Shown here: positions 8,674 through 35,542 of the stretch, piece after piece
How positions within the stretch are numbered: position 1 is the first letter of the stretch
Layout of the letters: every line of letters starts with the position of its first letter
Assembly (NCBI RefSeq): GCF_003076455.1
Contig: NZ_CP020918.1
Span: 2,046,001 to 2,110,000, forward strand
Direction: 5' to 3'
Source: Flavobacterium faecale
GTDB taxonomy: Bacteria; Bacteroidota; Bacteroidia; Flavobacteriales; Flavobacteriaceae
Length of the DNA: 64,000 bases
Notes under the pieces: generated by a model
What the model saw: the letters and a program-made list of their open reading frames with translations, nothing else
Told to the model about the DNA's origin: nothing
The model's database searches: none
Translations under genes and position numbers: made by a program

Positions 8674-10206
8674 GTGCCGTTAGGCACTTAATATAGGTAG
8701 AGAATTTGAATTGACATGGGGTGTAGTGCCGTAGGTATGCAATTGCTACGTTATTATACCGTACCTACGGCACTCTAATTCAGATTAATTATTTTTTTTA
8801 CCAATATATTGTGCCTAACGACACATTAGCAGAGTACCTATAAATGATTTACATAAGTATTGGTTGTAGTTAAAGTAATTATAAAATAAATACTGTAAAT
8901 CAAGTGTTCAACTGAGCCGTTAGGCACCTAATATAGGTAGAAAATGTGATTAGATATAGGGTGTAGTGCCGTAGGTACGCAATTGAGATAAGGTTTTTTC
9001 GTACCCACGGCACTTTAATTCGGATTGATTGTTTTTTTACCAATATATTGTGCCTAACGGCACATTAGTAAAGTACCTACAAATGGTTCGCATAAATATT
9101 GGTTGTTTTTATAGTTGTTAGAAATAAGTACTGTAAATCAAGTGTTCAACTGTGCCGTTAGGCACTTAATATAGGTAGAAAATGTAAATTGATATAGGGT
9201 GTAGTGCCGTAGGTACGCAATTGAGATAAGGTTGTTTCGTACCTACGGCACTCTAATTGGGATTGATTGTTTTTTTATCAATATATTGTGCCTAACGGCA
9301 CATTAGTAGATTGTCTATAAATGATTTACATAAGTATTGGATGTCTTTGTAGTTGTAATAAATAAATACTTCAAATCAAATGCTCAACTGTGCCGTTAGG
9401 CACATAATATAGGTAGAGGATGTTATTAAATATGGGATGTAGTGCCGTAGGTACGCAATTGCAACGTTGTTATACCGTACCTACGGCACTCTAATTCGTA
9501 TTGATTGTTTTTTTTAGCAGTATATTGTGCCTAACGGCACATTAGCAGAGTAACTATAAATGATTCTTATAAATATTGATTGTTTTTATAGTTGTTAGAA
9601 ATAAGTACTGTAAATCAAGTGTTCAACTGTGCCGTTAGGCACTTAATATAGGTAGAAAATGTAATTGATATAGGGTGTAGTGCCGTAGGTACGCAATTGA
9701 GATAAGGTTGTTTTCGTACCTACGGCACTCCAATTCCGATTGATTGTTTTTTTTTACCAGTATATTGTGCCTATCGGCACATTAGCAGAGTAACTATAAA
9801 TGATTCTCATAAGTATTAGTAGTTTTTGTAATTACAAAATAAGTACTGCAAATCAAGTGTTCGATTGTGCCGTTAGGCACATAATATAGGTAGAAAACGT
9901 AGATTGATATCCATTTGGCGTGCCGTAGGTACGCAATTTCAACGTTATTATACCGTACCTACGGCACTACAATTCGCTCTGATTTTTTTTCTACCAATAT
10001 GTTATGCCTAACGGCACAGTAGTAGAGTACCTATAAATGATTCACATAAGTATTAGTTGTTTTTATAATTACAAAATAAATACTGCAAATTATGTGCTCA
10101 ACTGTGCCGTTAGGCACAAAATGTAGGTAGAAAATGTGATTAGATATGGGTTGTAGTGCCGTAGGTACGCAATTGTAATGCGGTTGTCCCGTACCTGCAG
10201 CACTCC
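8674..10206. repeat. Palindromic array A: seven ~238-bp BIME-like units
   Basis: The hairpin GTGCCGTTAGGCAC (5-bp stem, loop GTTA; the second copy has one mismatch) starts units at 8674, 8914, 9152, 9390, 9629, 9867 and 10104, a strikingly even period of 237-240 bases. Each full unit holds, in order: hairpin a; 8 nt; GGTAGAAAA or a close variant; then GTGCCGTAGGTACG, a ~20-nt spacer and its exact complement CGTACCTACGGCAC; then TTTTTTACCAATATATT; then hairpin a inverted (GTGCCTAACGGCAC). Each unit is therefore a nested long palindrome of about 160 bases followed by a ~75-base linker. The seventh unit is truncated after the inner palindrome (CGTACCTGCAGCAC). No open frame runs through it. It fills the whole gap between the sulfurtransferase and crp genes. 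Confidence 0.95.
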
Positions 10207-10262
10207 AAATGACAAAATATTAGAATAGGCATTTTACGCATTTGTATCTACGTTATATAACA

Positions 10263-10310
10263 AATAAAAAAAAAGTTGCAACTAATAAAACGGCTGCAAC
10301 TTTCTTTTTT
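10263..10310 (-). terminator. Intrinsic terminator of the ribB-crp operon
   Basis: AAAGTTGCA (10272-10280) pairs with TGCAACTTT (10295-10303) over a 14-base loop. On the minus strand it is followed by nine T residues. It lies about 80 bases beyond the crp stop codon. Confidence 0.7.
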
Positions 10311-10381
10311 ATGGAAACACTAAAAAAAATAATTAATACTGACTAACACTTGAATCTAGCATAGGCTGCAGTAGCAAATTA

Positions 10382-10963
10382 TTAATTAGAAATTTTAGAC
10401 TTGATCCTGCTCAAAGTTTCTTGTGATATATTGATGTAAGAAGCTACTATTTTGTTGGGTAGACGTTTAACAATGGTGGGATTTATTTTAAACAATTGGT
10501 TATATCTTTCTGAAGCATCCAAAGTGGTAAAAGACATTAATCTTTTTGAATTATTCACATAGGCTTTTTCTAAATAGATACTATAAAAGTCGTTCCATTT
10601 TGGAATTATTTTCATGAGATGTCTAAAATCTTCGTGTGTGATATATAAAAGTTTACTATTTTCAACAACCTGAATCGTTTCTTGCGCTGGCTCATTCGTT
10701 ATAAAACTAACAAGTGCTGTTGCCCAATGATTTTCGAAGGCGATGTAACGAGTAACGTCTTTTTCAACATCATTGATGTAAAATATTCTCAAGCAACCTT
10801 CTAAAACAAAGTAACTAACTTGACTCACCTTTCCATGAGCAAGTAAAATTTCATTTTTATTTTTGTCAACGGGTTTAAAATAAGATAGAATGGTTTTTAG
10901 GTCATCCTCATCCACATTAATATTTTTTTTAATGTAAGTAGCAAGTTCGGGATAGTTTGTCAT
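10382..10963 (-). CDS. Crp/Fnr-family transcriptional regulator
   Basis: This 193-residue cytoplasmic regulator has an N-terminal cyclic-nucleotide-binding beta-roll (about residues 20-115, including EILLAHGKVSQVSYFVLEGC) and a dimerisation helix. It ends with a helix-turn-helix whose recognition part is SYINISQETLSRIKSKI (about 175-191). The phosphate-binding R-S/T of true cAMP receptors is not evident and there is no N-terminal cysteine cluster for an iron-sulfur centre. It is therefore neither a classic Crp nor an Fnr, and its ligand is unknown. Its ATG (10961-10963) directly abuts the TAA of the ribB-like gene, so the two are translationally coupled. A palindrome resembling a Crp/Fnr box lies upstream of the operon, which suggests autoregulation. 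Confidence 0.88.
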   Translation of the reverse strand: MTNYPELATYIKKNINVDEDDLKTILSYFKPVDKNKNEILLAHGKVSQVSYFVLEGCLRIFYINDVEKDVTRYIAFENHWATALVSFITNEPAQETIQVVENSKLLYITHEDFRHLMKIIPKWNDFYSIYLEKAYVNNSKRLMSFTTLDASERYNQLFKINPTIVKRLPNKIVASYINISQETLSRIKSKISN

Positions 10964-11626
10964 TTAATTGTAGTCTCTGACAAATTTACGATATTGAATT
11001 ATATCTTTAATTGATAATACGATCAAATCGTGTTCTTTTCCAAATTCGATTATTGTATTCCTATTCGCCATTGTTCCGTCATCATTCATTAATTCGCACA
11101 ATACTGCTTCGGGTTTTAAGCCTGCCAATTTCATTAAATCAATGCTTCCCTCGGTATGACCTTCTCTGTCAAAAACGCCATTATCCCTACCTCGCAGCGG
11201 AAAAATATGTCCTGGTCTTGCCAAGTCATCGCTTTTGGCATTATTAGCACAAGCAACTTGGATGGTTTTTAATCTATCTTTTGCAGAAACACCAGTAGTT
11301 ACACCTTCTCTCGCTTCGATAGTGATAGTAAAGGGGGTTTGAAAGCTACTTGTGTTTTCTTTCACCATATAAGGTAAGTCCAGTATATCAGCTTTTTCAT
11401 TGGTTAAACATAGACATACAATACCACTACATTTTCTAATCATGAGTGCCATACTCGCAACAGTCATATTATGAGCAGAGAATATGAGGTCACCTTCATT
11501 TTCTCTATTTTTATCATCTACCAAAATTACTCCGCCGCCATTTTGTAGATGCTTCAATGCTTTTTCAAAGTTTAGTTGACTATTTATATCAATTTCAGGA
11601 TAAGTTTCTATTTGTGTGAGTTCCAT
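10964..11626 (-). CDS. ribB: 3,4-dihydroxy-2-butanone-4-phosphate synthase (monofunctional RibB)
   Basis: This 220-residue cytoplasmic enzyme converts ribulose 5-phosphate into formate and the four-carbon precursor of riboflavin. Visible family motifs are [15 protein letters not shown] (about residues 37-51, acidic metal and substrate ligands), [30 protein letters not shown] (in two parts: RPGHIFPL and the HTEGSID metal site, about 136-164) and [10 protein letters not shown] near 178-187. It lacks the GTP cyclohydrolase II domain fused to it in the RibBA proteins common in Bacteroidota, so it is a stand-alone, possibly second copy. It shares an operon with the Crp/Fnr regulator. No FMN riboswitch is visible upstream; a dyad that could bind the regulator is. 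ATG start at 11626. Confidence 0.92.
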
Positions 11627-11648
11627 TTTAGCTTTAAATTATTTGATA

Positions 11649-11694
11649 CAAAGCTAAAGTTGTTTTTTATCAAAAAATTTGATGTAAGTCAAAT
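11649..11694 (-). promoter_or_regulatory. Promoter with Crp/Fnr-type operator for ribB-crp
   Basis: Read on the minus strand, TAGCTTTG (11649-11656) matches the Bacteroidota -7 box TAnnTTTG. Upstream lies the perfect dyad ATTTGA-N6-TCAAAT (11677-11694), containing TTGATGTAAGTCAA, one base off the Fnr-type TTGATnnnnATCAA. If transcription begins about 6 bases past the -7 box, the dyad centre falls near -42, the usual place for class II activation. The co-transcribed regulator is the obvious binder. This is inference from position and symmetry. Confidence 0.5.
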
Positions 11695-11929
11695 AATAAA
11701 AAAATTTGAACAGTGCCCTTTTTGATTGTTTTACATTCGGCGTCATACGTCATGCGATCGTACGTGAGGCATATACGTATCACAAAATCACATAAACCTA
11801 TGCGATCATGGGCTCAAATGCTACACGAAGCTGCTTGCGAAGTAGAGTCAATCTGTTTTTCTATTTGGAATGGTAGTTATTGTATCCTATTTCATCTTTG
11901 GTCATTACTATTGGCAACTGTTTATGAGT
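11695..11929. other. Intergenic stretch without recognised gene
   Basis: Together with the promoter zone this makes a 303-base gap between ribB and the deiodinase-like gene. Bases ~11705-11860 are less AT-rich and repeat the phrases ATGCGATC and ATACGT, which may be the relic of a gene or element. No frame with coding character, terminator or RNA fold was recognised. Confidence 0.3.
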
Positions 11930-12613
11930 TTAATAAAATACACAAATATCGTCCAGTTCTTTTCTTTGCAAATCTGGAACCCAACAGTCGTCTGCGGGAT
12001 AGCTCACAGGAATCAACATAAAAGGTTTTTCGTTTTCGGGGCGTTTAAGTGTTTTGGTCAAGAAATTCATCGGACTTGGAGTATGCGTCAATGCTACTAA
12101 TCCGGCGTTGTGTATGGCAGCCAACAAAAATCCAGTGGCAAGGCCTACGCTTTCTTGTACATAATAATTGTTTTTGTTTTTTCCTTCTTCACCAAATTCA
12201 TAAGTACGTTTGAAAACGATAATTAAATAAGGAGCAATTTCTAGAAATGGTTTTTCCCAACCTGTTCCTAGTGGCTTCAAGTCTTCAAGCCAACTGTCAG
12301 ACATACGTGACTTATAACTGTGGCGTTCCTCTTCTTCGGCTGCGATACGAATTTGCTTTTTGATCTCGGGGTTCTCAACAACACAAAAAGTCCATGGTTG
12401 TTTGTGCGCTCCCGAAGGCGCTGTTGATGCAGTTTTAATCAAATTATGAATGACCTCTCGTGGTATCGGTCGATCAGAAAATTCTCTAACAGATCGCCTT
12501 TTTTCCATTTTTTCATAGAAAGCTTTAGATTTTTCAAGGATCTCTTTTTCTTCTGGCTGTGGTAAACTATACTTTATGTACGGATGATTATCAATAATTT
12601 TGTGGTCGCTCAT
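11930..12613 (-). CDS. Nitroreductase-fold flavoprotein, iodotyrosine deiodinase (IYD) homologue
   Basis: This 227-residue FMN protein matches iodotyrosine deiodinase better than ordinary nitroreductases. RRSVREFSDRPIP (39-51) and APSGAHKQPWTFCVV (65-79) are FMN-binding segments, the second nearly identical to the animal enzyme. The lid that defines IYD is intact: E96, Y100 and K121 have the same mutual spacing (4 and 21 residues) as the glutamate, tyrosine and lysine that bind the amino-acid end of the substrate in mammalian IYD. The C-terminus (MLIPVSYPADDCWVPDLQRKELDDI) also fits. Bacterial homologues reductively dehalogenate halotyrosines in vitro; a natural role here is unknown. No membrane anchor, so presumably cytoplasmic. 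ATG at 12613, single gene. The IYD assignment rests on remembered homologue sequence. Confidence 0.8.
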   Translation of the reverse strand: MSDHKIIDNHPYIKYSLPQPEEKEILEKSKAFYEKMEKRRSVREFSDRPIPREVIHNLIKTASTAPSGAHKQPWTFCVVENPEIKKQIRIAAEEEERHSYKSRMSDSWLEDLKPLGTGWEKPFLEIAPYLIIVFKRTYEFGEEGKNKNNYYVQESVGLATGFLLAAIHNAGLVALTHTPSPMNFLTKTLKRPENEKPFMLIPVSYPADDCWVPDLQRKELDDICVFY

Positions 12614-12719
12614 GGTATTTGAATTAAATTTGGTTTTTAAAATAATGCAGTAGTCGTTTCTTTTTTTTACAAAATATTTTGGTCTACTCTTTTGTACTGT
12701 AAATCAATAATACACTCTT

Positions 12720-13151
12720 TTAATTAAACTTAAGAGGTTTTTTCAATAATTTGGAGGTATTTTCTTTTTTGTAGACAATGGTAGAGTCCAGTTGACCGTT
12801 CATTTTATAGTACGACCATTTCCCTATGTAGTACCAATGACTTTCTACGGCGTCACTATCATACTGTGTTTTTCCTTTTTTATATACTTGACCATTGGGA
12901 TGATAAAAAACGGTTTTGGTGTTATAGCCGCGATAACGCTCTGTTTTAATTAGGTTTCCGTCTTTAAAGTAGCGCCACTTGCCTTTCTCATTGCCCTTGT
13001 GGTATCGTCCAGTTGCCGTGTAGACCGATTCAAGGGAATCGGTAATTACCCATTTACCTTCTGGTTTTTTATTTTTATACTGATTGATTTTGGAGCTACA
13101 ACTGCTTAATCCTGTAATGATTAGAGTAGCTAAAAAAAGTGGTTTAAGCAT
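12720..13151 (-). CDS. Small lipoprotein with MORN-like repeats
   Basis: This 143-residue protein has a lipoprotein signal: a charged start, a hydrophobic stretch, then LSSC with the lipidated cysteine at residue 18. The mature part consists of repeats built around G-K-W and Y-x-N-G phrases (PEGKWVITDS, EKGKWRYFKDGNLIKTERY, YHPNGQVYKKG, IGKWSYYKMNGQLDSTIVY). These resemble the MORN/YwqK-type repeats common in Bacteroidota. It should sit on the periplasmic face of a membrane or at the surface. Such repeat proteins are often linked to secreted toxins or surface structures, but no partner gene is next to it and no function is claimed. ATG at 13151; monocistronic between the deiodinase-like gene (same strand) and divergent nusB. 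Confidence 0.75.
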   Translation of the reverse strand: MLKPLFLATLIITGLSSCSSKINQYKNKKPEGKWVITDSLESVYTATGRYHKGNEKGKWRYFKDGNLIKTERYRGYNTKTVFYHPNGQVYKKGKTQYDSDAVESHWYYIGKWSYYKMNGQLDSTIVYKKENTSKLLKKPLKFN

Positions 13152-13404
13152 AAGTATAATTTTAGAAGCTGTTGGTTGCTTGATTTGAACTTGTTCTTAA
13201 AAGTAGTGAATATATCTATTCGGTAAGAAAAAAGTATATTTTTTGAATAAGAATCGAATGGTAGTTAGATCGGATGGCCTTTAAAAATAGGGTTGGGAGG
13301 TGAGAAATAAAAACGGTTTTTTGAATAGTTCCAGTAAGCAGCGAAACGGGTTAGTGACATTTCAATACAAAATGTCATTAAATAAAGAGGCGTTGTTGCC
13401 TAGC

Positions 13405-13491
13405 CCTGATCGCAGCAAGTATCCTTTTTTGTGGTGGAGAGCCCGAAGCCTCGGGACGATCCACCATAAAAAAGATACTGCGCAGAGCAGG
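13405..13491. repeat. Extragenic long imperfect palindrome (REP-like)
   Basis: Arms run CCTGATCGCAGCAAGTATCC... and ...GATACTGCGCAGAGCAGG. The best-paired part is AGTATC plus a T-run plus GTGGTGGA against TCCACCAT plus an A-run plus GATACT, with an inner hairpin CCCGA-AGCC-TCGGG at the tip. The element is GC-richer than its surroundings and sits upstream of nusB. Hairpins of this layout (CCTGAT...AAAAGATA...) are familiar as dispersed repeats in Flavobacterium genomes. The weak open frame across it (13300-13575) is not protein-like. Confidence 0.7.
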
Positions 13492-13587
13492 ACAGCTGTT
13501 GTTGTAAAACGGATTGATGTGCTCCAAATGATTTGTATGATTTATCTCTTTTTGAAATTTAAATTTTATTTTTAGAAATGGAATAAC

Positions 13588-13595
13588 TACTTTTG
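13588..13595 (+). promoter_or_regulatory. -7 promoter box of nusB-yajC
   Basis: TACTTTTG followed by CACTC matches TAnnTTTG and is 28 bases before the nusB start. No convincing TTG at -33 is present. Confidence 0.5.
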
Positions 13596-13623
13596 CACTC
13601 TAATTTTTAAAAGTTCTTACAAG

Positions 13624-14568
13624 GTGGTAAACAGAAGACACATTCGCGTCAAAGTAATGCAATCGATTTATGCGATGCATCAAAATGGTTCTGATAATTT
13701 CGAGAAAGAAGAAAAATTTCTTTTTTTTAGTATAGACAGTATTCAGGATTTATATCTTACCATGGTTTCCTCTTTGATGGAAATTTGTAAAAAAGAATCG
13801 GAGTTTTTGCATAAATCAAGTTTGAAACACTTGGCTACTACTGCAGAACGCAATCCCAACAACAAATTTATTAATAATGCCGTTTTCCAGATCTTGGCCG
13901 AAAATAATTCGCTAAGTATTGGTATTGAAACACGTAAAATTGATTCTTGGTATTTGAACCAAGATTATATTATGTTGTTGTTGAATGCTATAAAACAAAG
14001 TCAGTACTATATTGACTATATGAGCAACGCAAAACAATCTTTTGAAGAAGACAAACAGTTGATTGTGGATTTGTTTGTGAACGTTATTGCACCAAACGAA
14101 AAGTTGTACGAGCATTTGGAAGATGATAAATTGACTTGGATTGATGATATTCCGTTAGTGAATACTTTGATTGCTAAGCAATTGAAAGCTTTGGAGCCAA
14201 TTGAGAATGATAACTTTAGAGTTCCTAGAGTATATAAGGACACTGAGGATAAAGATTTTGCAAAAGATTTGTTTCGTAAAACTGTTTTGAACGAAAAAGA
14301 ATTGGCTAAACAATTTGCAGATAAAACGCCAAACTGGGATAGTGATCGTATTGCCGAATTGGATACTATTATTTTGAAAATGGCGATTTGTGAGTTTATG
14401 AAATTTCCATCGATTCCTGTAAAAGTTACTTTGAACGAGTACTTGGAGTTGGCAAAAGAATATTCTACTCCAAAAAGTAGTTTGTTTATCAACGGTATTT
14501 TGGATAACTTGGTCAAAGAAATGACAACTAATAAAACAATGATGAAGACCGGTCGTGGTTTAATGTAA
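13624..14568 (+). CDS. nusB: Transcription antitermination factor NusB
   Basis: This 314-residue protein begins MVNRRHIRVKVMQSIYAMHQ, the typical start of Bacteroidota NusB, read from a GTG with AAGG just before it. The helical NusB RNA-binding domain lies in the C-terminal half: the segment DRIAELDTIILKMAICEFM, VKVTLNEYLELAKEYSTPKS and SLFINGILDNLVKEM (about residues 240-300) matches the conserved core. At 314 residues it is about twice the E. coli length, because Bacteroidota versions have a long N-terminal region in place of the short first helix. NusB with NusE binds boxA RNA and promotes antitermination of rRNA transcription. It is followed 27 bases later by yajC, the usual arrangement in this phylum. 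Confidence 0.92.
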   Translation: MVNRRHIRVKVMQSIYAMHQNGSDNFEKEEKFLFFSIDSIQDLYLTMVSSLMEICKKESEFLHKSSLKHLATTAERNPNNKFINNAVFQILAENNSLSIGIETRKIDSWYLNQDYIMLLLNAIKQSQYYIDYMSNAKQSFEEDKQLIVDLFVNVIAPNEKLYEHLEDDKLTWIDDIPLVNTLIAKQLKALEPIENDNFRVPRVYKDTEDKDFAKDLFRKTVLNEKELAKQFADKTPNWDSDRIAELDTIILKMAICEFMKFPSIPVKVTLNEYLELAKEYSTPKSSLFINGILDNLVKEMTTNKTMMKTGRGLM

Positions 14569-14595
14569 TTTATTAATTAAAAATAAAATAAAACA

Positions 14596-14871
14596 ATGTT
14601 AGAAAATTTAAACAAATTTGCTCCCTTTTTACTAATGTTTGTAGTGATCTATTTCTTTATGATTAGACCGCAACAAAAGAAAGCAAAACAAGAAAAAGTG
14701 TTTGAAAGCGAATTGAAAGTAGGTGATAAAGTTATTACAAAAAGTGGTCTTCACGGTAAAGTGTCTGAGCTTTCTGAGACGACAGTAGTAATTGAAACTA
14801 TGGCTGGAAAATTGAAAATGGAGCGTTCTGCAATCTCTATGGAGATGAGTGCTTCTTTGGCAAAAAAATAA
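14596..14871 (+). CDS. yajC: Sec translocon accessory subunit YajC
   Basis: This 91-residue protein has a single N-terminal membrane helix (FAPFLLMFVVIYFFMIRPQQK, in residues 8-28), the invariant RPQQKK turn, and a small soluble domain with VGDKVITKSGLHGKV. These are the defining features of YajC, which associates with SecDF and the SecYEG channel in the inner membrane. Length is normal. It is the second gene after nusB, separated by 27 bases, and ends at a strong terminator, so the pair forms a short operon. Confidence 0.95.
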   Translation: MLENLNKFAPFLLMFVVIYFFMIRPQQKKAKQEKVFESELKVGDKVITKSGLHGKVSELSETTVVIETMAGKLKMERSAISMEMSASLAKK

Positions 14872-14890
14872 TAGCTTTGCTATAGATTAC

Positions 14891-14925
14891 AAAAAAAGTC
14901 CCAATTGAATTGGGACTTTTTTTTT
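14891..14925. terminator. Bidirectional intrinsic terminator
   Basis: The stem AGTCCCAATT/AATTGGGACT has A7 on its left and T9 on its right. It stands between yajC (plus) and the lysine-rich gene (minus), whose 3' ends face each other, and can serve both. Confidence 0.9.
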
Positions 14926-14937
14926 GATTACGAAAAA

Positions 14938-15390
14938 TTACTTTTTCTTGTTTTTGCTCTTTTTCTTAGACTTCTTAGCCTTTTTTGTTTTAGCTTTCGC
15001 TTTTTTCTCTTTAAGCTTTGCTTTTACTTTGGCTTTTTTGGCTTTTTCTTTCTTCGCTTTTTTCGCTTTGGCTAGTTTCTTTTTTGCTTTTTGTTTTGCT
15101 TTTTCTTTAGCTTCAGCTTTTTTCAATTTTGCTTTTTTCTTGTCAGACATCTTTACTTTGTTTTTTTTCTTCTTGGTTTTAGACTTCACTTTTGTTGCAG
15201 CATCATCTGCAACTGTTTCTATATTTTCTTCGACAGTTGTTTTAGTTGTAATTTCGGCAACAGTCTCAGGTTCTTGTATTGCAATTTCTTCCGTAGGAGT
15301 TTTAATAGTTTCTTCTACTTTGTTTTCAACTACCTCATTGTTTTTAGGAACAACAGGTTCAACTTCTTGTTTTTTTTGATTGCGGACCAT
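14938..15390 (-). CDS. Lysine/alanine-rich histone-H1-like protein
   Basis: This 150-residue protein has two parts. The N-terminal ~65 residues are acidic (rich in E, V and T). The C-terminal ~85 residues are almost only K, A and E in KAK and KKAK patterns, ending KSKKKSKNKKK. Such tails occur in bacterial histone-H1-like and AlgP-type proteins that bind and condense DNA by charge. There is no signal peptide or membrane segment. ATG at 15390. Because the tail has low complexity, homology is unreliable and the number of repeats probably varies among strains. The frame is continuous despite the repeats, which supports a real gene. The opposite strand is also open over much of this region only because of the composition. 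Confidence 0.65.
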   Translation of the reverse strand: MVRNQKKQEVEPVVPKNNEVVENKVEETIKTPTEEIAIQEPETVAEITTKTTVEENIETVADDAATKVKSKTKKKKNKVKMSDKKKAKLKKAEAKEKAKQKAKKKLAKAKKAKKEKAKKAKVKAKLKEKKAKAKTKKAKKSKKKSKNKKK

Positions 15391-15681
15391 TATATATTTT
15401 CGTTTAAAAATTAAGTACTAGCGGTAAAAATCAGTGTTAACTTAATGTTATGTAATTGTTATGCAAATGTATGAAATAATACCGTTTTCCAATGTTAAGT
15501 TTTTTATGGTGTATGAATTTTAGGTAAATTCTAGGTCTTTTTATCTTTGTTGCGTTGGTTTAATTGGTTGATATTTAGTAAGTTTTGTCTTTGTGTTTTT
15601 CCAATGTTAAGTTTTTTCTGCAATGTGTTTCGAATACCAATAATGATCGTTTTTTGGTAAGAAGTTAGAAGAGATAGGAAT
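15391..15681. other. Intergenic region with a 21-bp direct repeat
   Basis: TTTTCCAATGTTAAGTTTTTT occurs exactly at 15485-15505 and again at 15597-15617, 112 bases apart. A plus-strand -7-like box TATCTTTG lies between them (15542-15549) but no gene follows on that strand. The repeats could be protein-binding sites for the minus-strand lysine-rich gene or a small duplication. Nothing else is recognised. Confidence 0.5.
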
Positions 15682-15718: not shown

Positions 15719-15752
15719 GATTGTAGTTGTAAATGAAATTTTAATGCTTTAA

Positions 15753-17219: not shown

Positions 17220-17230
17220 TTTTCTGTTTT

Positions 17231-26384: not shown

Positions 26385-26549
26385 CCTTTTTCGATTTAAT
26401 TAAAAGTTTGGTCCGCAAAGATTCATAGAGAGAATGCGCAGAGATTCGCTAAGTTTCTGCATAATCTGTGATTCCGTAGGAATCTAGCGGTATTATTTGT
26501 GGTAATTTTTTTTTGAGAAACTGGACAAAATCTATCTGTTTGTTTTTTT

Positions 26550-27020
26550 AAACACATAGATTCATAGAGTTTTGTAGTGTTATATTTAGTCGTTTTACTC
26601 TCATAGGGAGCATAGTGTGTGAGGTGTAAGTAGGACTTTTTTTTAAACAGATAGAGTCATAGAATTTTGTATTATAAATTTCAGTCGTTTTACTCTCATA
26701 GGACGCATAGTGTGTGAGGTGTAAGTAGGACTTTTTTTTTAAACACATAGATTCATAGCATTTTGGAGTGCTATGTTCAGTCGTTTTACTCTCATAGGGA
26801 ACATAGTGTGTGAGGTGTGAAAAGAGTTTTTTTAAACACATAGATTCATAGATTTTGAAAGTGCTATATCTAGTCGTTTTACTCTCATAGTTTACATAGT
26901 GAGTGAGGTATAAACAGGAGTTTTTTTAAACACATAGATTCATAGATTTTGAAAGTGCTATATCTAGTCGTTTTACTCTCATAGGGAGCATATTGTGTGG
27001 CGTGTGAAAAGAGTTTTTTT
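26550..27020. repeat. Tandem array of five ~94-bp direct repeats (CATAGATTCATAG family)
   Basis: Units begin AAACACATAGATTCATAG at about 26550, 26645, 26741, 26834 and 26928 (spacing 95, 96, 93, 94). Each has a core TAGTCGTTTTACTCTCATAG, then AGCATAGTGTGTGAGGTGTAA, ending in a T-run. Divergence among copies is low. The apparent reading frame at 26548-26841 (residues HYAPYES repeated) only mirrors the repeat. The stretch 26410-26500 just before it holds loosely related ATTCATAGAGAG and the small hairpin GATTCC-GTA-GGAATC (26470-26484). Confidence 0.92.
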
Positions 27021-27056
27021 CAACTCAGATTATCGAAATAAAATAAAACTTAAATA

Positions 27057-27137
27057 ATAATCTGTGTTAATCTGTGGAATCTGTGTTTACTTTGTTAGCT
27101 ACAAAATAAATCTGTGCCAATTCGTGCAATTCGTGTT
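27057..27137. repeat. Single diverged copy of the CTGTG/TTCGTG repeat family
   Basis: Contains AATCTGTGTTAATCTGTGG, ATCTGTGTTTACTTTG and CTGTGCCAATTCGTGCAATTCGTG, in the same order as a unit of the array at 3258-4085. It abuts the end of the DUF1003 gene. Confidence 0.75.
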
Positions 27138-27147
27138 GAAAAACAAT

Positions 27148-27704: not shown

Positions 27705-27724
27705 CCAAAATTAAAAAATCAGCT

Positions 27725-28744: not shown

Positions 28745-28769
28745 TTTTTCGATCTATAAATTTTATGCT

Positions 28770-28806
28770 AACCAACCCTGTTTTTAAAAATACGGTTGGT
28801 TTTTTT
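28770..28806 (+). terminator. Intrinsic terminator of pyrD
   Basis: AACCAACC pairs with GGTTGGTT, followed by a T-run, 26 bases after the pyrD stop. Confidence 0.85.
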
Positions 28807-28837
28807 ACTTAAAAATAGTACAAATTAAAACCAGGCT

Positions 28838-29758
28838 ATGTTTAATATCATTCTTATTTTTGTCTTCCTGCTGTTGGGAATCGTTTTGCAAAATGTTAGA
28901 AAGTTTCCAGTTTTATCGGCTTACAAAATCCTGAACAAAATTGTGGTGACGGTTTGTTTACCTGCAATTGTATTGTATTATATTCCAAAATTAGTTTGGA
29001 GTAATGAACTTTTATACCCTATTGGTGCAGCGTGGATCGGTTTTGTAGTGGCTTTTCTTTTGTTTTATTTTCTAGGAAAAAAATGGGGATGGTCCAACAA
29101 ATTAATCGGTTGCCTTGTCTTGACTGCTGGTCTCGGAAACACATCGTTCTTAGGATACCCAATTATTAGTGCTTTGTATGGCGAAGCGGGGCTAAAGATT
29201 GCTATTTTGGTTGATCAGCCAGGGACTGTAGTCGTGTTATCTACTTTGGGTATTTTTGTGGCAACTTATTTTTCGAAAGACAATCTGAATCCCATGCAAA
29301 TGTTGGTTCGAGTTTTTAAATTTCCTCCCTTTGTGTTTTTTATTATCGCTTGCTTACTGAATGTTTTTTCGATTTCAATTAATGAAAATCTACAAATCAT
29401 CCTGAAAAGTTTAGGAAGTATTATGGCGCCATTGGCATTAACATCGGTAGGGTTGCAGTTGCGATTTGAGCGTAAAAGTCAACATTGGCGCTTTTTGGGT
29501 TTTGGTCTTTTGTACAAATTAATCTTGACTCCTGCATTGATCTATGTGTTGTATGTGATGATTTTGGGTCAAAAATCGTCCATGATTGGGGTGGTATTAA
29601 TGGAAACCGCTATGGCATCCAATATTACCGCAAGTATTTTGGCAGCAAGCTATGGTCTCAAGCCTCGACTAGCGAGCATGATGATTGGATATGGGATTCC
29701 GCTATCGTTCATTTCTCTTATTTTTTGGTACTTTGTTGCGCAATATAGTGCCGTCTAA
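28838..29758 (+). CDS. AEC-family transporter (auxin-efflux-carrier type)
   Basis: This 306-residue inner-membrane protein is made almost only of hydrophobic helices (about ten), with the family features LNKIVVTVCLPAIVLYYIPK near the start and LTAGLGNTSFLGYPIISALYG (two pieces, ~93-113). A second-half repeat follows (SIMAPLALTSVGLQLRF, then METAMASNITASILAASYGL). The bent helices with N and P residues at their centres are typical of the bile-acid/AEC fold. Bacterial members carry malonate, malate or similar weak acids; the substrate here cannot be told. ATG at 28838, 32 bases after the pyrD terminator, so probably separately transcribed. The peroxiredoxin gene follows 91 bases later. Confidence 0.9.
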   Translation: MFNIILIFVFLLLGIVLQNVRKFPVLSAYKILNKIVVTVCLPAIVLYYIPKLVWSNELLYPIGAAWIGFVVAFLLFYFLGKKWGWSNKLIGCLVLTAGLGNTSFLGYPIISALYGEAGLKIAILVDQPGTVVVLSTLGIFVATYFSKDNLNPMQMLVRVFKFPPFVFFIIACLLNVFSISINENLQIILKSLGSIMAPLALTSVGLQLRFERKSQHWRFLGFGLLYKLILTPALIYVLYVMILGQKSSMIGVVLMETAMASNITASILAASYGLKPRLASMMIGYGIPLSFISLIFWYFVAQYSAV

Positions 29759-29849
29759 AAGTCCTTTTAGCCTTTATTTATGATTTGATACTAGCACTAT
29801 TTGCCTTTTTTTTCCTAATTTTAATCAAAATTTAAAATTACATAGCACT

Positions 29850-30488
29850 ATGGCAACAATACGATTAGGAGATATAGCTCCAGATTTTACTACAGATACA
29901 ACACAAGGAAAAATAAGTTTTCATGAATGGCTAGGTGACTCTTGGGGAGTTTTGTTTTCGCACCCATCCGATTTCACGCCTGTATGTACAACCGAGTTAG
30001 GAACAGTAGCAAACTATTTTCCTGAATTTCAAAAACGAAATACCAAAGTAATTGCTTTGAGTGTAGATGGTGTAGAGTCGCATTTGAAATGGATTAAGGA
30101 TATTGAGGAGACTCAAAATGTAACCCTACAATACCCAATTATCGCTGACGAAAGTAAAGAAGTGGCCAATCTATATGATATGATTCACCCAAATGCTGAT
30201 AATACGCTAACGGTACGTTCGGTATTTATAATTGGTGCAGACAAAAAAGTGAAGTTGATCTTGACCTATCCTGCGTCAACAGGAAGAAATTTTGACGAAT
30301 TACTTCGTGTGATTGATAGTTTGCAATTAACAGCTGATTATAGTGTAGCTACTCCAGCAAACTGGAAAGACGGTGATGACGTTGTAATTTCAACTGCTAT
30401 CAAAGACGAAGATATTCCAGCGAAATTCCCAAAAGGATTCAACCGCATCAAATATTATTTGAGAATGACACCACAACCTAATAAATAA
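29850..30488 (+). CDS. 1-Cys peroxiredoxin, Prx6 type
   Basis: This 212-residue cytoplasmic peroxidase has the peroxidatic cysteine C46 in the motif HPSDFTPVCTTE. It has the Prx6-type C-terminal domain (VRSVFIIGADKKVKLILTYPASTGRNFDELLRVIDSLQ in parts, then ATPANWKDGDDVVI and FPKGF). There is no other cysteine in the protein, so it must be a 1-Cys enzyme that depends on an outside thiol for recycling. It reduces hydrogen peroxide and organic hydroperoxides. Length matches the family (about 210-220). ATG at 29850, followed by a strong bidirectional terminator; it appears to be a single-gene unit. No OxyR- or PerR-like site was recognised upstream. Confidence 0.94.
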   Translation: MATIRLGDIAPDFTTDTTQGKISFHEWLGDSWGVLFSHPSDFTPVCTTELGTVANYFPEFQKRNTKVIALSVDGVESHLKWIKDIEETQNVTLQYPIIADESKEVANLYDMIHPNADNTLTVRSVFIIGADKKVKLILTYPASTGRNFDELLRVIDSLQLTADYSVATPANWKDGDDVVISTAIKDEDIPAKFPKGFNRIKYYLRMTPQPNK

Positions 30489-30625
30489 GGGTGTTACCAA
30501 ATTGACCGATTAAGTGTTATCAAGTTATAAGGAATCAACTTAGTCAAACAATATTAAAATTATGTCTTGCACGTTTTACTACTATATCAAATATAGGAGA
30601 TATCAATATGTTCCTCACATAGCAT

Positions 30626-30666
30626 AAAAAAAAAGGGAATTCAAATTAGTTTTGAATTCCCTTTTT
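30626..30666. terminator. Bidirectional intrinsic terminator
   Basis: AAGGGAATTCAAA pairs with TTTGAATTCCCTT, with A9 on the left and T5 on the right. It lies between the peroxiredoxin gene (plus) and the GH13 gene (minus). Confidence 0.88.
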
Positions 30667-30732
30667 GATGTTCTATAATTTTGATGAATTTGCAAAAGTC
30701 TTATTCTATTACTTTTTCGCAAAAAAAACAAT

Positions 30733-32541
30733 TTAATCCTCGTTTGTTGTAGGTACAAAAATTAATGCAGCATAAGCTGGTAAGTTTGACGTTGCCTTCA
30801 TGGCTTCATTGTCATAACCTTCCTGATCAATTTGAATAGGATGAACTTCCATATCGGTAAATTCTTCATCATATCCTGTCCAATCACTATTAAATACCAA
30901 TTGAAAACCCGCTGCTTGCGTGATTCCAAAACTGTAATTTTCGTACGATACGTTTGATAAATTTACAAGCACCACCGTCGAATCACTAAAATCTTCTTTA
31001 GTAGATCGTGCGTAGGCCAGTACTTTATTCTGTTCATTAAAGTGCAAAATTTTGGTGAATTGCCCTTTTAATCCTTGGGTTTCAAATTTTTCTTCAGTTC
31101 GCAAGCGTACCAAGTCTCTTACCATTCTAGTAATGCCCTTGTGCTTTTTCTGTTGGTCCCAATCAAGTGCTTCTGTATCTTGAAAATATTCATCTTCAAT
31201 AAATTCCTGACCTTGAAACAACATCGGGATTCCTGGTGATGTTAGAGTAATAGCAATTCCTAAGATTGCTCTCTTCTTGCCAAAGAAGCTATCTGCGTTT
31301 CCTGGCTCAATCTCTTCAGGTACGCGCGCTTTGCCATTCGCAACCTCATCATGAGATTCGGTATATATAATTCTTTCAAAAGCATCTATATTGTATTTAA
31401 ATAAGATGGCATCAACTAATGCTTGCATATCGCGGTGCTCATCTCCTTGTTCAATTAAAACTTTTCTAACTGGGTGTACAAAATTCATGTCCCATTGTGA
31501 TCCATAACCTAATCCACCATTCTCAGTAGATAGTGTTACCAAATCATCACCTTTCAAATCTTCGGCAATAGTTAATTTACCTGGATATTTTGAGTTAATT
31601 TCAGCATTAATATCTCTCATTAACTGATTTCCTTCTGGTATTTCTGTATCATATCCCAATCCACCACCTTCATAACGTATGTATGAGGTAGCGTCCATTC
31701 GTAAACCATCACAATGATAATCTTCAATCCACATCAAGGCATTGTCTCGTATGTATTGACGAACTTCGTCGCGACCATAGTCAGGTCTTGAATCACCCCA
31801 TGGAGTCTCAGATCTGTGATCATTGTAGAAATAAATTCCACCTTTATCATTTTCAGACCAGCCATCAAATTGCCATAAATCCATATCCGAAGGGCCAAAA
31901 TGATTGTAAACAACATCCAAAATTACGGCTATACCTTCTTTGTGAAAAGCATTTACCATTTTTGCAAATGCTTCTGCACCACCATAATCACGCTCAATGG
32001 CAAATGGATACGATGGGTTGTAACCCCAAGAGATACCTCCAGCAAATTCGGCAATTGGTAGTATTTCAACGCAGTTTATTGCCAATGATTTCAAATATGG
32101 AATTTTCTTGATTACATCTTCAAACGTAGCCACTTGGTCTTCCTGTTTTCTATTGAAGGTACCAACGTGCAATTCGTAAATTACCAAATTGTTCCATGAT
32201 TTCATTTCGAAATCTTGGTCTTCCCATTCAAATTCGATGTTTGTAACCAATGAATTTCCGTTACTGTTAGTCATCTCTTTGGCGTAAGGATCATTACGCT
32301 CCAAGATTTGCTTACCATTGTGAATGATGAACTTGTATTCATCACCTGCTTTTGCATTTTTTACCGTAACTGCCCAATAGCCATTTTCTTCTGCCTTGAG
32401 TTTGTTTTTACTTTTGCTCCATTCGTTGAATGTGCCCGTAACATACACTTTGTCCGCATTGGGTGCCCACACTCTAAAGGTGGTTCCTGCTTTAGATACT
32501 ATCGCACCCATGCCTTCGACTTTTGCTATAATCTTTTCCAT
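30733..32541 (-). CDS. GH13 alpha-amylase-superfamily enzyme with CBM48 (branching-enzyme-like)
   Basis: This 602-residue protein has no signal peptide, so it should be cytoplasmic. The N-terminal CBM48-type domain (about residues 12-105: TTFRVWAPNADKVYVTGTFN) is followed by the catalytic (beta/alpha)8 barrel and a C-terminal beta domain. Catalytic residues are visible: nucleophile D283 in DGLRMDAT, acid/base E327 in IAEDLKG, and transition-state D398 in TESHDEV. Substrate residues include DVVYNHFG (209-216). CBM48 with this barrel suggests action on alpha-1,4/1,6 glucans: a branching, debranching or malto-oligosaccharide enzyme. It is shorter than the classic GlgB (~730), so I do not give the symbol. 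A small 54-codon gene overlaps its start by 16 bases. Confidence 0.85.
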   Translation of the reverse strand: MEKIIAKVEGMGAIVSKAGTTFRVWAPNADKVYVTGTFNEWSKSKNKLKAEENGYWAVTVKNAKAGDEYKFIIHNGKQILERNDPYAKEMTNSNGNSLVTNIEFEWEDQDFEMKSWNNLVIYELHVGTFNRKQEDQVATFEDVIKKIPYLKSLAINCVEILPIAEFAGGISWGYNPSYPFAIERDYGGAEAFAKMVNAFHKEGIAVILDVVYNHFGPSDMDLWQFDGWSENDKGGIYFYNDHRSETPWGDSRPDYGRDEVRQYIRDNALMWIEDYHCDGLRMDATSYIRYEGGGLGYDTEIPEGNQLMRDINAEINSKYPGKLTIAEDLKGDDLVTLSTENGGLGYGSQWDMNFVHPVRKVLIEQGDEHRDMQALVDAILFKYNIDAFERIIYTESHDEVANGKARVPEEIEPGNADSFFGKKRAILGIAITLTSPGIPMLFQGQEFIEDEYFQDTEALDWDQQKKHKGITRMVRDLVRLRTEEKFETQGLKGQFTKILHFNEQNKVLAYARSTKEDFSDSTVVLVNLSNVSYENYSFGITQAAGFQLVFNSDWTGYDEEFTDMEVHPIQIDQEGYDNEAMKATSNLPAYAALIFVPTTNED

Positions 32542-32690
32542 AATCTTAGATTTTGCGGAATCGTGTTGCTAGTTAACTCTTTTACCTCTTTGCCATAAAG
32601 CGAAGTTGTTTTTGTCCAAGGGTCATCTTCTCTATTGGTTAATTTAGATTTTGCGTACGTCTTTCCTACTTTTGAAAATTGTGTGTTCAT
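32526..32690 (-). CDS. Small unrecognised protein (54 aa) overlapping the GH13 gene start
   Basis: An ATG at 32690 opens a 54-codon frame ending with a TAG at 32526-32528, inside the first codons of the GH13 gene (overlap 16 bases, +1 relative frame). The peptide begins MNTQFSKVGKTYAKSK and continues with NREDDPWTKTTSLYG. It is hydrophilic and basic, with no membrane segment, and its codons resemble those of neighbouring genes. The tight overlap suggests translational coupling. I do not recognise a family. It could also be a leader peptide, or an unused frame; conservation in relatives would decide. Confidence 0.45.
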   Translation of the reverse strand: MNTQFSKVGKTYAKSKLTNREDDPWTKTTSLYGKEVKELTSNTIPQNLRLWKRL

Positions 32691-33113
32691 CGTGTTTTGT
32701 TTTTTGAATTAGTAATAGAATTTCAACAATACAAAGATGATTCAATTGTCTATTTAGAAAATTATAGAATTTTATGGTGTAGTTATATAATTACAATTTA
32801 TGCACCATTTTTCATTACATTTTAGGACTTATTGCAGGTATTTGATTGTGCTTTCGCTTAAAAGTTATTATCTAATACTAGATGTTAATATTGCTAACAG
32901 TATCTAGAATGCCAATTGCATTAAGGTAGAATGCTTTGGTAGTGAGTTGATTGTGAAATTTTGAGCTACGTTTAAATATTTGTGCGAGCTTACTGAAAAT
33001 CATGATTTTTAGATACTACGTAAATATTGGAAATATGAATTAAAGTAGACCTAAAAGCATTGACAATAAATTCTCCTTGTAGTTTTTATGATCGAAAAGG
33101 CTGCAGTTATAAA
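32691..33113. other. Intergenic stretch without recognised gene
   Basis: About 420 AT-rich bases between the small frame and the receiver-protein terminator. No frame with coding character, repeat or RNA fold was recognised; the left part should hold the promoter of the GH13 operon. Confidence 0.35.
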
Positions 33114-33141
33114 TTAAAAAAGCCAGACGTTGGTCTGGCTG
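33114..33141 (-). terminator. Intrinsic terminator of the REC-only gene
   Basis: AGCCAGAC-GTTG-GTCTGGCT stem (33121-33140) followed on the minus strand by TTTTTTAATTT, 9 bases beyond the stop. Confidence 0.85.
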
Positions 33142-33148
33142 GTTGTTG

Positions 33149-33592
33149 TTATTTTACTAAAATGAAATTGTTTAAATCAGGCTTATGTGACATCCAATTG
33201 ATTTTACTTACGTCAGAAATCATTTTGATGAGGTCGTTGAAATCGTATGGTTTAATGGCATAATAATTTGCTCCAAAATTTAAACTCATTTCGATATCCA
33301 CTTTACTAGAACTAGTAGAGTACATCACGACTGGTACCTGATAAATAGTCGGTTCGTTGCGTATTTCTTTCAATAATTCAAGGCCAGATTTCTTTGGCAT
33401 GTTCACATCTAGAAAAACGACTCCGTTTTTGAATTTGTTATTCATAATCCCTTCTACAAGGTTTTCTCCATTTTTATGAATATGGAGTTCAATTATATTG
33501 GTATGGCTTGTTGCAACGCTATCTACAGCGTCATTAAAAAACATTATATCATCTTCGTCGTCATCGGCATAAAAGATACTTAAGTTACTCAT
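33149..33592 (-). CDS. Stand-alone receiver-domain response regulator (CheY/Rcp1-like)
   Basis: This 147-residue protein consists only of a receiver domain: the acidic cluster DDDEDD (10-15), the phosphoacceptor D62 in FLDVNMP, the threonine/serine position in YSTSS and the lysine in AIKPY. The extended acidic cluster and the slightly long alpha1-beta2 region are typical of the Rcp1-like receivers paired with bacteriophytochrome or other hybrid kinases. No output domain exists, so it must act by protein-protein contact. No kinase gene is adjacent; the cognate kinase is unknown. ATG at 33592, own terminator 9 bases after the stop. The HMA-AraC gene lies 80 bases upstream on the same strand. 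Confidence 0.92.
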   Translation of the reverse strand: MSNLSIFYADDDEDDIMFFNDAVDSVATSHTNIIELHIHKNGENLVEGIMNNKFKNGVVFLDVNMPKKSGLELLKEIRNEPTIYQVPVVMYSTSSSKVDIEMSLNFGANYYAIKPYDFNDLIKMISDVSKINWMSHKPDLNNFILVK

Positions 33593-33671
33593 TGTACGTA
33601 TTCGTTAGTGTGTAAAAGTATTGTATTTATACCATAACGGCTTCACTTTTTGAGTGTATTACTTGTGAATT

Positions 33672-34256
33672 TTATTGTTTTTTATCGGCTAAATCTTCAT
33701 TAAGTTCCTGAATTGCAACTCTTCGCTTTTCTTTCACATTTTTAAAATGAGTAGGATTGAAGCCTGTTACTTTTTTAAATTGTGTCGAAAATGCAGACAA
33801 ACTACTAAAATGAAGTTTGGTTGCTATTTCAGAAAAATTATATTCTTCGAATAAAATCATTTCCTTCGCCTTTTCCATTTTTATCAAATTGATATAAGTA
33901 ATTATAGTACTCGAAGTAACCTCAGAAAATGCATTAGAAATATAATTGTAATCAAGATCTAATTTTTTGCTCAAATAATCAGAGATATTAATTTTGATAT
34001 TTTCTTCGTTGTTTACATATTCTTGGCAGGAATTTTTAATTTTTTCGATTAAAATTCCGCCTTTGCTTTCTATGATTTCAAGACCAACGGTTTTTATTTT
34101 AGCATTTAATGTTCGTTTCTTTTCTTCGCTTAATTCCTCTTTAACTTGAACTTCTCCAAGTTCTACCTTAATAGGGTGTAGATCGAGTTCTTCTAGCGCG
34201 TCTTTTACAAACACTTTACAGCTCTCGCAAGCCATATTCTTGATATAGATTTTCAT
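33672..34256 (-). CDS. AraC-family regulator with N-terminal heavy-metal-associated (HMA-like) domain
   Basis: This protein of 194 residues starts MKIYIKNMACESCKVFV. It has an HMA/ferredoxin-like metal-binding fold with C-x-x-C in MACESCK (residues 8-14), continuing to GLEIIES (~60). A linker follows, then a two-helix-turn-helix AraC DNA-binding domain at the C-terminus (FSEIATKLHFSSLSAFSTQFKKVTGFNPTHFK, shown here in pieces: SEIATKLHFSSLSAFSTQFK and VTGFNPTHFK, ~145-180). The fusion suggests a regulator that directly senses Cu(I), Ag(I) or another soft metal, but that is inference; no metal pump or chaperone is adjacent. The ATG at 34256 begins the HMA motif; a longer in-frame start exists upstream but adds nothing family-like. 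Single gene next to palindromic array B. Confidence 0.82.
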   Translation of the reverse strand: MKIYIKNMACESCKVFVKDALEELDLHPIKVELGEVQVKEELSEEKKRTLNAKIKTVGLEIIESKGGILIEKIKNSCQEYVNNEENIKINISDYLSKKLDLDYNYISNAFSEVTSSTIITYINLIKMEKAKEMILFEEYNFSEIATKLHFSSLSAFSTQFKKVTGFNPTHFKNVKEKRRVAIQELNEDLADKKQ

Positions 34257-34338
34257 TTTGTGAATTTTGGTTTGTAAATATAGGAGTTTAGGCAAGATAT
34301 TATATCATAGAGCGTCATGTAAATCATGTTTTTATATC

Positions 34339-35542
34339 GTCCCTACGGGACTACGAAATTGAGGTAGATTTTTTTTTACCAATATATTGTCCCTACGGGG
34401 CATTCTGTCAATTTATAGAGATGTAATAATGGTAGAAAACAGAAAAGGTTTAGCAATTAAATCGCGAATAGATTTTCATTAGTGAATTGAAGTTAATGTG
34501 GGGCAATCCCGTAGGTAGGCAAAATGGTAGAAACGATAATCGGTTTAGCCGTAAAATCCCGAATTGCTTATCATTATTGAATTGGTGCAAATACAAGCCA
34601 ATCCCGTAGGGATGACATATCCGTAGAAAACAATAAAAGTTTAGGGGTTAAATCCCGTAGGGATGATATGTAATGGATATCAGATTCTAACAAAAATTTT
34701 ATTTAAAGATCGTGTCTTTATATCGTCCATACGGGACTACTGGATTTATTATGATGTTTTTTCTACCAATATATTGTCCCTACGGGACATTTTGTCAATC
34801 CCGTACAGATAGAATATAGATAGAAAAGATAATCGGTTTATCATCAAAATCCCGAATTGATTAACAATATTAATTAGGTGCAAATGCAAGCCAATCCCGT
34901 AGGGATGACATATCTGTAGAAAACAAAAACGGTTTAGCAATAAAATCCCGTAGGAATGGTATAATATGGATATCAGATTCAAACAAATATGTTATTTAAA
35001 GATCGTGTCTTTATATCGTCCCTACGGGACTACTGTATTTATTATAATGTCTTTTCTACCAATATTTTGTCCCTACGGGACATTCTATCAATCCTGTAAG
35101 GTTGAAATATCGGTAGAAAACAGATAAGATTTAGAAGTAAACCCCTGAATTGATTACCAATAATGAATATGTGCAAACAAAGGCCAATCCCGTAGGGATT
35201 ATATATTGGTAGAAAATAATAACGGTTTAGGAATTAAATCCCGTAGGGATGATATATAATGGATATCAGATTCTAACAAAAATGTTATTTAAAGATCGTG
35301 TCTTTATATCGTCCCTCCGGGACTACTGGATTTATTGTAATGTCTTTTCTACCAATATTTTGTCCCTACGGGACATTATATCAATCCTGTAAAGATGAAA
35401 TATCGGTAGAAATCAGATAAGGTTTAGCATTAAAATACCGAATAGATTATCATAATCGAATTGGTGCAAATGCAAGCCAATCCCGTAGGGATGACATATC
35501 GGTAGAAAACAAAAATGGTCTAGAAATTAATCCCGTAGGGAT
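34339..35542. repeat. Palindromic array B: four BIME-like units beside a Y1 transposase
   Basis: GTCCC-TAC-GGGAC hairpins mark unit starts at 34339, 34725, 35018 and 35311 (spacing 386, 293, 293). Each unit holds a second GTCCCTACGGGAC preceded by CTACCAATAT-like sequence. Two copies of the inverse hairpin ATCCC-GTA-GGGAT follow; the first is followed at exactly 8 nt by GGTAGAAAA. The units also share the phrase AAAGATCGTGTCTTTATATC. The first unit is longer because it carries an extra diverged copy. The last hairpin ends 30 bases from the stop codon of the Y1 transposase gene. Apparent frames inside (for example 34749-34982) are repeat artefacts. Confidence 0.94.

Follow-up and report, generated by a model that had tools for sequence, protein, structure and literature searches.

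The ends of IS608-type elements are not inverted repeats, and the end hairpins of IS200/IS605 elements lie in the same orientation. For REP/RAYT systems, including their REPIN and BIME arrangements, the accessible sections of PMC3733652 and PMC8266576 describe hairpins with a GTAG-containing box, inverted pairs and dispersed copies, together with a low-copy Y1 gene flanked by repeats whose type goes with the transposase. In TIRtrons a Y1 gene (TIRYT) is located between inverted repeats, part of which are double palindromes, and some genomes also contain copies that lack the gene (Di Nocera et al., 2013, PMC3733652, in its accessible part); TIRYT proteins are treated under subclass 2.1 in the accessible text of a survey of the superfamily (Quentin et al., 2018, PMC6006769). 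There, subclass 1.2 comprises proteins of about 148-150 residues from Bacteroidetes, of low copy number and with the motifs DH[IV]H, WQ and YI-NQ--HH, for which the table enters REP as 'no' and the text reports a general lack of typical terminal IS200 structures. Here we describe two repeat arrays, A and B, in a window of 64,000 nucleotides from Flavobacterium faecale (C1:2046001-2110000 of the 4.62-Mb single-contig genome). Both arrays are members of a short-repeat family that is widespread around a small Y1 gene in Bacteroidota, and we consider it probable, at about 0.72, that they are clusters of a non-autonomous REP-like repeat whose reader is a Y1 HUH transposase belonging to subclass 1.2.

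A gene encoding such a transposase has its 3' end about 24 nt beyond array B. With the motifs DHIH (residues 54-57), W95-Q96 and Y115...Q119..HH122-123 and a length of 153 residues, the protein shares the described features and is read by these motifs as a member of subclass 1.2, an assignment by motif and not by a tree built with the reference members of Quentin et al. W95, Y115, Q119 and H123 are invariant across 56 aligned sequences. The protein passed the NCBIfam IS200/IS605 model NF033573 with 82.7 bits (cut-off 55) and failed REP_Tyr_transpos (NF047646) with 32.1 bits (cut-off 80). Its AlphaFold model displays an HUH fold (pLDDT 93.8), and the best PDB matches in Foldseek are the ISDra2 and IS608 transposases with hairpin DNA (2xma, 1.7e-09), with TnpAREP (4er8) at rank 30. 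Its named nearest relatives are mostly from Flavobacterium. The same gene order is found in two other genomes (G203 and G223) without the interval that holds array B and the Y1 gene.

Units in array A have the order hairpin A (+, boxed), hairpin B (+), hairpin B (-), hairpin A (-, boxed), and this complete four-hairpin order is visible without any gene, although single hairpins are imperfect in some units, as are some inner hairpins of array B. The outer hairpin of array A, GTGCC-GTTA-GGCAC, is followed by 8 nt (e.g. TTAATATA) and then by GGTAG in 7 of 7 plus-strand copies, with exact GGTAGAAAA at 8936, 9174, 9651, 9889 and 10126 (+) and at 9987 (-). In array B the outer hairpins are ATCCC-GTA-GGGAT (+) and GTCCC-GTA-GGGAC (-), the former followed by GACATATC or TATATATT as the 8 nt and by GGTAGAAAA at 35208 and 35501 (+), with inverted copies at 34759, 35052 and 35345 (-). 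The outer hairpins of both arrays are thus followed by 8 nt and then mostly by GGTAG and A-rich DNA, as had been noticed in a first-pass annotation made from the letters alone. Its claim of a fixed box and spacing stands for the 8 nt and, mostly, for GGTAG, but not for all nine letters: two of the four plus-strand hairpins of array B carry CGTAGAAAA or TGTAGAAAA (34622, 34915), and the six inverted boxes of array A comprise three copies of GGTAAAAAA, one of GGTAGAAAA and two with GATA or GCTA. Of 14 exact copies of GGTAGAAAA in the window, nine sit 8 nt past a perfect 5-bp hairpin, three follow a hairpin with four of five Watson-Crick pairs (8936, 9987, 35112) and two follow no hairpin (27343, 34431). 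None of the inner hairpins B of array A has a box at 8 nt; the inner hairpin of array B closest to the gene has the same orientation as in relatives.

On its own, GGTAGAAAA was rejected as a genome-wide motif, with 155 copies against 153 in a reversed control. The combined pattern CCGT(N)AGG-N11-GGTAG has 31 matches in the host genome and two in the reversed control, and the stem pairs 3, 4 and 5, for which it prescribes no letters, are of Watson-Crick type in 28, 30 and 30 of these 31 matches, consistent with the proposal of the same annotation that both hairpin arms had changed together. Among the loci found, another ATCCC-type array occupies the intergenic region C1:605729-606657, and six arrays with mainly ATGCC outer stems are located about 800 nt upstream of 16S rRNA genes (L092-L097); the arrays are therefore not peculiar to the window. 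At C1:3430585, a further match, a hairpin of the array type is absent.

The association of such hairpins with the gene extends to its relatives. GTDB contigs were scanned with the alignment of the group, and from at least 564 stretches the best 80 by protein match were chosen regardless of hairpins. In these, hairpins were scanned with no letters prescribed (perfect 5-bp stem, loop of 3-4 nt, at least three GC), with the expectation taken from first-order shuffles. A hairpin is found within 250 nt of the gene in 78 of the 80 relatives (12.3 expected), and hairpins are densest near the gene, with 11.5 per kb at 0-100 nt compared to about 0.5 per kb at distances above 1 kb. This contradicts the description of subclass 1.2 in PMC6006769, with no REP and a general lack of IS200-type terminal structures, but not the assignment of the protein. 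With both sides read for 400 hairpins within 600 nt of the gene, 105 of 800 sides have GGTAG at offset 8, and each other offset between 0 and 35 has it only 0-3 times, while GTAG is found at the downstream offset 9 on 122 of the 800 sides; among 306 hairpins more than 2 kb from the gene, six have GGTAG at offset 8 on either side. The box is thus enriched beside hairpins elsewhere, which had been proposed as a check. In the position tables no GTAG appears upstream, on the 5' side of the hairpin; some inner hairpins of the host genome carry GTAG at their foot. GGTAG is retained with the stems GTCCC, GTTCC, ATCCC, GTGCC and ACTCC, and at the same offset the box is altered to TGTAG with GTCGC stems and to TATAG-like letters with GCTCC stems, so that its position is fixed while the stems differ. 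Matches to the prescribed core near relatives' genes have Watson-Crick letters at the unprescribed pairs 3, 4 and 5 in 70, 74 and 70 of 76 cases, with CG, TA and GC as alternatives, and the sixth stem pair in F. anhuiense is C-G in 24 and T-A in 19 of 43 hairpins.

The hairpins around these genes are arranged in mirror image. Within 300 nt of the gene we count 96 plus and 20 minus hairpins on the 5' side and 25 plus and 87 minus on the 3' side; hairpins with TAAA, AAA or AAC loops (35 of 343 in one hairpin set) were excluded because their orientation is not assignable. In 21 of 59 loci the closest 5' hairpin begins 21-28 nt ahead of the start codon, and in 18 of 55 the closest 3' hairpin lies 8-18 nt past the stop; where the closest 3' hairpin falls within 30 nt of the stop, it is inverted and has no box in all 21 cases. 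A boxed plus hairpin upstream together with a boxed minus hairpin downstream is found in 23 of the 64 loci that have boxed hairpins, so the complete layout is often incomplete. In most loci hairpins A and B have common stem letters while the DNA between them is not conserved, whereas some loci are mixed. With IS200/IS605 elements these loci share the HUH Y1 fold, the closest solved structures and hairpins near the element ends; they differ in having hairpins that are inverted around the gene and mirrored instead of pointing the same way, few gene copies per genome and gene-less units.

On the transposase tree, loci of like stem type cluster together, and stem type does not simply track the host genus. 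Each locus was labelled by the majority stem within 500 nt, boxed hairpins being weighted 1.5-fold, and the tree contains 73 proteins, of which two rows are unlabelled; eight loci whose matched frame contains stops were excluded. Where names are given, its 72 relatives fall into 13 families with 16 genera, and nearly all are Bacteroidota. Stem type requires 15 changes on this tree compared to 40.9 on average after shuffling (no shuffle out of 200 came as low) and, if the first stem letter is ignored, 8 compared to 29.4, in agreement with the expectation that stem types would go with Y1 clades. GTCGC, GCTCC and GTGCC each define a single supported group and GTTCC accounts for 17 of the 18 rows of another, while GTCCC and ATCCC are scattered, with 10 and 6 changes. 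The 25 Flavobacterium hosts display four stem types (xTCCC 16, xTTCC 5, xCTCC 3, xTCGC 1), and one stem type extends over several families. A Y1 gene in a record of a Candidatus Nitrotoga metagenome-assembled genome (L118) is nested among Flavobacterium in the tree and may reflect a misbinned contig or a transfer.

Copies of the hairpin that are not linked to the gene provide a better test than linked ones. Among the matches listed, they have xTTCC stems in 96 of 101 cases where the genome's own gene is of the GTTCC type (G245, G247, G248, G249, G255, G260) and in 1 of 15 cases where it is of the GTCCC type (G239, G256, G268), 10 of these 15 being xTCCC and 4 xTGCC. The third stem pair was counted by hand and linked matches were identified by a separate check; the count covers the matches listed, with 48 of 60 matches of G247 and several genomes outside it, and excludes a mixed-type genome (L133, 5 xTTCC) and genomes of other types. 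The genomes behind this agreement are few and mostly related Flavobacterium. In a survey of 199 genomes of the family, a Y1 gene of this group was detected in 23 (E 1e-12, G006 barely), and two or more boxed patterns are found in 9 genomes with the gene and in 3 of the remaining 176; the sole other genome of the same genus in this set has neither the gene nor a boxed pattern. Searches for the gene yielded no match at 1e-10 among 50,697 phage records and matches in 2 of 72,556 plasmid records.

Gene-less units are dispersed in some of these genomes. The GGTAG pattern is present in 24 of 30 searched genomes of relative loci, and dispersal is plain in few of them: F. anhuiense contains 51 boxed hairpins (control 0) and LHD-85 contains 60 (control 1). 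Most of those in F. anhuiense form dispersed gene-less pairs, and the boxed hairpins face each other in 19 of 20 regions, the remaining one containing only two hairpins pointing the same way. All four hairpins pass the scan in three of the 19 regions and one inner hairpin passes in 12; in the others the inner hairpin is itself boxed (one) or no inner hairpin passes (three). The units are gene-free, span about 175 nt and, for 12 of them, show identities of about 67-80% in the alignments shown. Conservation among 47 boxed hairpins A of this genome extends from the hairpin foot to just past the box, and T occupies foot positions 2, 4 and 7, for which no letter was prescribed, in 46, 47 and 47 of them. 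We compared the flanks of four F. anhuiense sites with five relatives in search of empty sites. Two of the sites have relatives that lack the unit: both F. anhuiense and LHD-85 carry it there, while G248, G249 and G250 are without it at the first site and G248 at the second. In five orthologous comparisons at the four sites, hairpins carry 10 differences in 241 positions and interiors 45 in 477 (p 0.011), and the signal of purifying selection on dispersed copies is weak and mixed.

Taken together, the sequences are read by us as a REP-like system of subclass 1.2, whose box position and layout are unlike those of classical REPs. Its basic unit would be an inverted double hairpin, in which the outer hairpin A is followed by 8 nt, the box (G/T)(G/T/A)TAG and A-rich DNA, the inner hairpin B lies about 50 nt further in, and the transposase gene or nothing precedes the inverted B and A. 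A transposase dimer would bind the hairpins of single-stranded DNA by their stem letters and loop, with the fixed box acting as guide or as determinant of cleavage. Units that contain the gene as well as those that lack it would be excised, moved or amplified, local amplification giving rise to tandem arrays. Stems would diverge alongside the transposase while box and spacing remain. More tentatively, and with somewhat less than even odds in our view, the system may be phylum-wide, an interchangeable hairpin of 5-6 bp specifying the transposase and a fixed box 8 nt 3' of it setting the cut, and it may have evolved alongside, and not from, RAYT/REP, with gene-less units still spreading.

Several observations weigh against this proposal. 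The GGTAG pattern is missing in 6 of the 30 searched genomes and many contain one or two copies, about as many as the reversed control, and the use of a different box by some clades accounts for part of this; likewise, 14 of the 23 family genomes with this Y1 gene have fewer than two boxed patterns. No clear empty relative was found among the five at two of the four tested sites, and the junctions of the inserts are not base-precise. Foot and box do not evolve more slowly than the interior (12/146 compared to 45/477, p 0.74). On the 5' side of the window Y1 gene there are no such hairpins, and stems are mixed at several loci (e.g. L119, L127, L131, L133). The sequences show association, geometry, covariation, a mirrored layout, gene-less copies and presence or absence between relatives, and binding, cleavage and movement are what we infer. 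A box inside the outer hairpins is awkward if it were the excision cut site; alternatively, the cut may fall outside hairpin A with the box as guide, or hairpin A may be left behind.

Since transposase and flanking hairpins are linked, the agreement with the tree alone could result from common descent. In its pure form, where the shared geometry reflects the ancestry of a linked element with no constraint by recognition, such an explanation would fit the neighbourhood of gene and hairpins in nearly all loci and the equal speed of foot, box and interior between orthologues. We nevertheless regard it as unlikely, as it sits poorly with stem arms that change together, with stem letters shared by hairpins A and B of most loci across unconserved DNA, with the constant foot positions in F. 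anhuiense units that are otherwise only about 67-80% alike, and with unlinked copies that match the stem type of the resident transposase.

The hairpins might instead act in RNA, regulating the transposase mRNA and its neighbours from the 5' leader or the 3' end, with the box as an RNA feature. Although the preferred distances of the closest hairpins from start and stop codons would suit such a role, as would the location of some F. anhuiense units, judged by eye, just past gene ends or terminator-like hairpins, the units are inverted-symmetric and occur also without a gene and in tandem arrays, the boxed hairpins point inwards on both sides of the gene, and no Rfam family attained its gathering score in the arrays that were searched, so that we consider this role improbable. 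The notion of a classical RAYT/REP family that is merely unannotated draws on the GTAG inside the box, the inverted pairs, the dispersed copies and the one or two transposase genes found in most genomes; it appears highly improbable given the motif Y---Q--HH in place of Y---NP, the failed REP_Tyr_transpos model, stems of 5-6 bp and a GTAG located 3', 9 nt from the foot, and not 0-2 nt 5'.

The REP-like reading by a subclass 1.2 transposase, which we prefer, therefore retains the REP/BIME-like family read by an HUH Y1 protein that the first-pass annotation had suggested, with Y1 adjoining array B and hairpins in nearly all relatives; by its motifs the protein is of subclass 1.2 and not of the RAYT class. 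With REP/RAYT systems it shares dispersed inverted pairs beside a low-copy Y1 gene; it differs in protein subclass (YIQNQEEHH), in a box that lies within the unit, 8 nt 3' of the foot, and in its four hairpins per unit, as far as these systems are described in the accessible sections of the sources named above. The analogy of hairpin and guide box to the REP tetranucleotide accordingly holds for the GTAG within the box and fails for its position on the 3' side. TIRtrons may differ, their motif by description in the accessible part of PMC3733652 being GGGGWSAS, compared to hairpin-N8-GGTAG here; inverted hairpin pairs are observed in the present loci too. In the literature searched, with subscription papers and preprints outside its scope, we recognised no description of repeats tied to subclass 1.2: in its accessible part, a REP tool paper from 2025 tabulates REP predictions, which may include the present repeats, for two Flavobacterium genomes (PMC12306157), and that of PMC11194056 reports RayT genes in Chryseobacterium and does not mention repeats.

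Array A and the 16S-adjacent arrays have xTGCC stems, unlike those flanking the resident Y1. In view of these mainly xTGCC stems, array A and the six 16S-adjacent arrays may be relics of a second, lost subclass 1.2 transposase. Two relatives (L143 and L159) have the stem label GTGCC, each from one hairpin, and a GTGCC-type transposase may therefore once have been present. A second intact Y1 gene near cas1 was rejected as reader of array A, as other hairpins surround it (TGGGTTTTAACCCA, GGCTTTAGCC...GGCTAAAGCC, TGGCTAAAGCCA) and none of the CCGTAGG type was seen in the 3.3 kb around it. This gene (C1:4040762-4041193, L002:1489-1920), with the motif Y---Q--HH, is located between the end of a RuvC_III (cas9-like) gene and cas1-cas2, and a broken Y1 gene, matched as two pieces with stops, is found at C1:4016457-4016742. 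The rhodanese neighbour of array A occurs in 8 of 41 genomes of the genus, the host genome included. When the array A neighbours (rhodanese, cNMP, DHBP and the upstream gene at 5642) were compared with the seven other rhodanese loci, matches were limited to the rhodanese and, at a weak 26-28%, the upstream gene, and no empty site was therefore obtained.

Coordinates of array features and the transposase gene in the window
Feature	Position	Strand	Description
Array A	8644..10220	.	about 6.5 copies of a unit of about 238 nt; encloses no gene
First boxed hairpin A, array A	8674..8704	+	GTGCCGTTAGGCAC + TTAATATA + GGTAGAGAA
Other A(+) hairpins, array A	starts near 8914 (one mismatch), 9152, 9390, 9629, 9867, 10104	+
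First inner hairpin B, array A	8726..8738	+	GTGCCGTAGGTAT, one G-T pair
Other inner hairpins B, array A	near 8966, 9204, 9442, 9680, 9918, 10156	+
Inverted boxed hairpin A, array A	9049..9064	-	TGTGCCGTTAGGCACA, box GGTAAAAAA
Other inverted boxed hairpins A, array A	9287, 9526, 10003; imperfect near 8810, 9765	-
Array B	34332..35549	.	units of about 293 nt; A B B A order as in array A
Boxed hairpin A of array B closest to transposase	35480..35509	+	ATCCCGTAGGGAT + GACATATC + GGTAGAAAA
Other boxed hairpins A, array B	34601, 34894, 35186	+
Inner hairpin B, array B	35530..35542	+	about 30 nt past the 3' end of the Y1 gene
Y1_Tnp (HUH) transposase, 153 aa	35573-36034	-	DHIH, W-Q and YIQNQEEHH motifs

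Other repeats and RNAs were observed in the same regions. About 600 nt before each of the six 16S-adjacent arrays, Flavo-1 RNA (RF01705) is encoded on the opposite strand, and runs of a TGTA-type 4-nt tandem repeat occur shortly upstream of these arrays. Flavo-1 is also found in the window at 13398-13498 (47.2 bits). Direct repeats around ATCTGTGCAAATCTGTGCAATCTGTG at 3211-4070 belong to a separate repeat family with related copies at 27060-27143, and 26543-27027 contains a unit of about 95 nt in five tandem copies.

The hairpins described here are a likely substrate for a transposase subclass that one survey leaves without any, as far as its accessible text goes (PMC6006769). The RNAMotif search described there specifies basal stems 7-20 nt long that carry GT[AG]G on their 5' side, and 5-6 bp stems with a 3' box would therefore be missed. 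REP-like systems whose box is mirrored and whose stems are short would thus escape published search rules, and the GTCGC, GCTCC, GTGCC and GTTCC groups offer a natural set of transposase-hairpin pairs for studying how single-strand transposases choose their hairpins.

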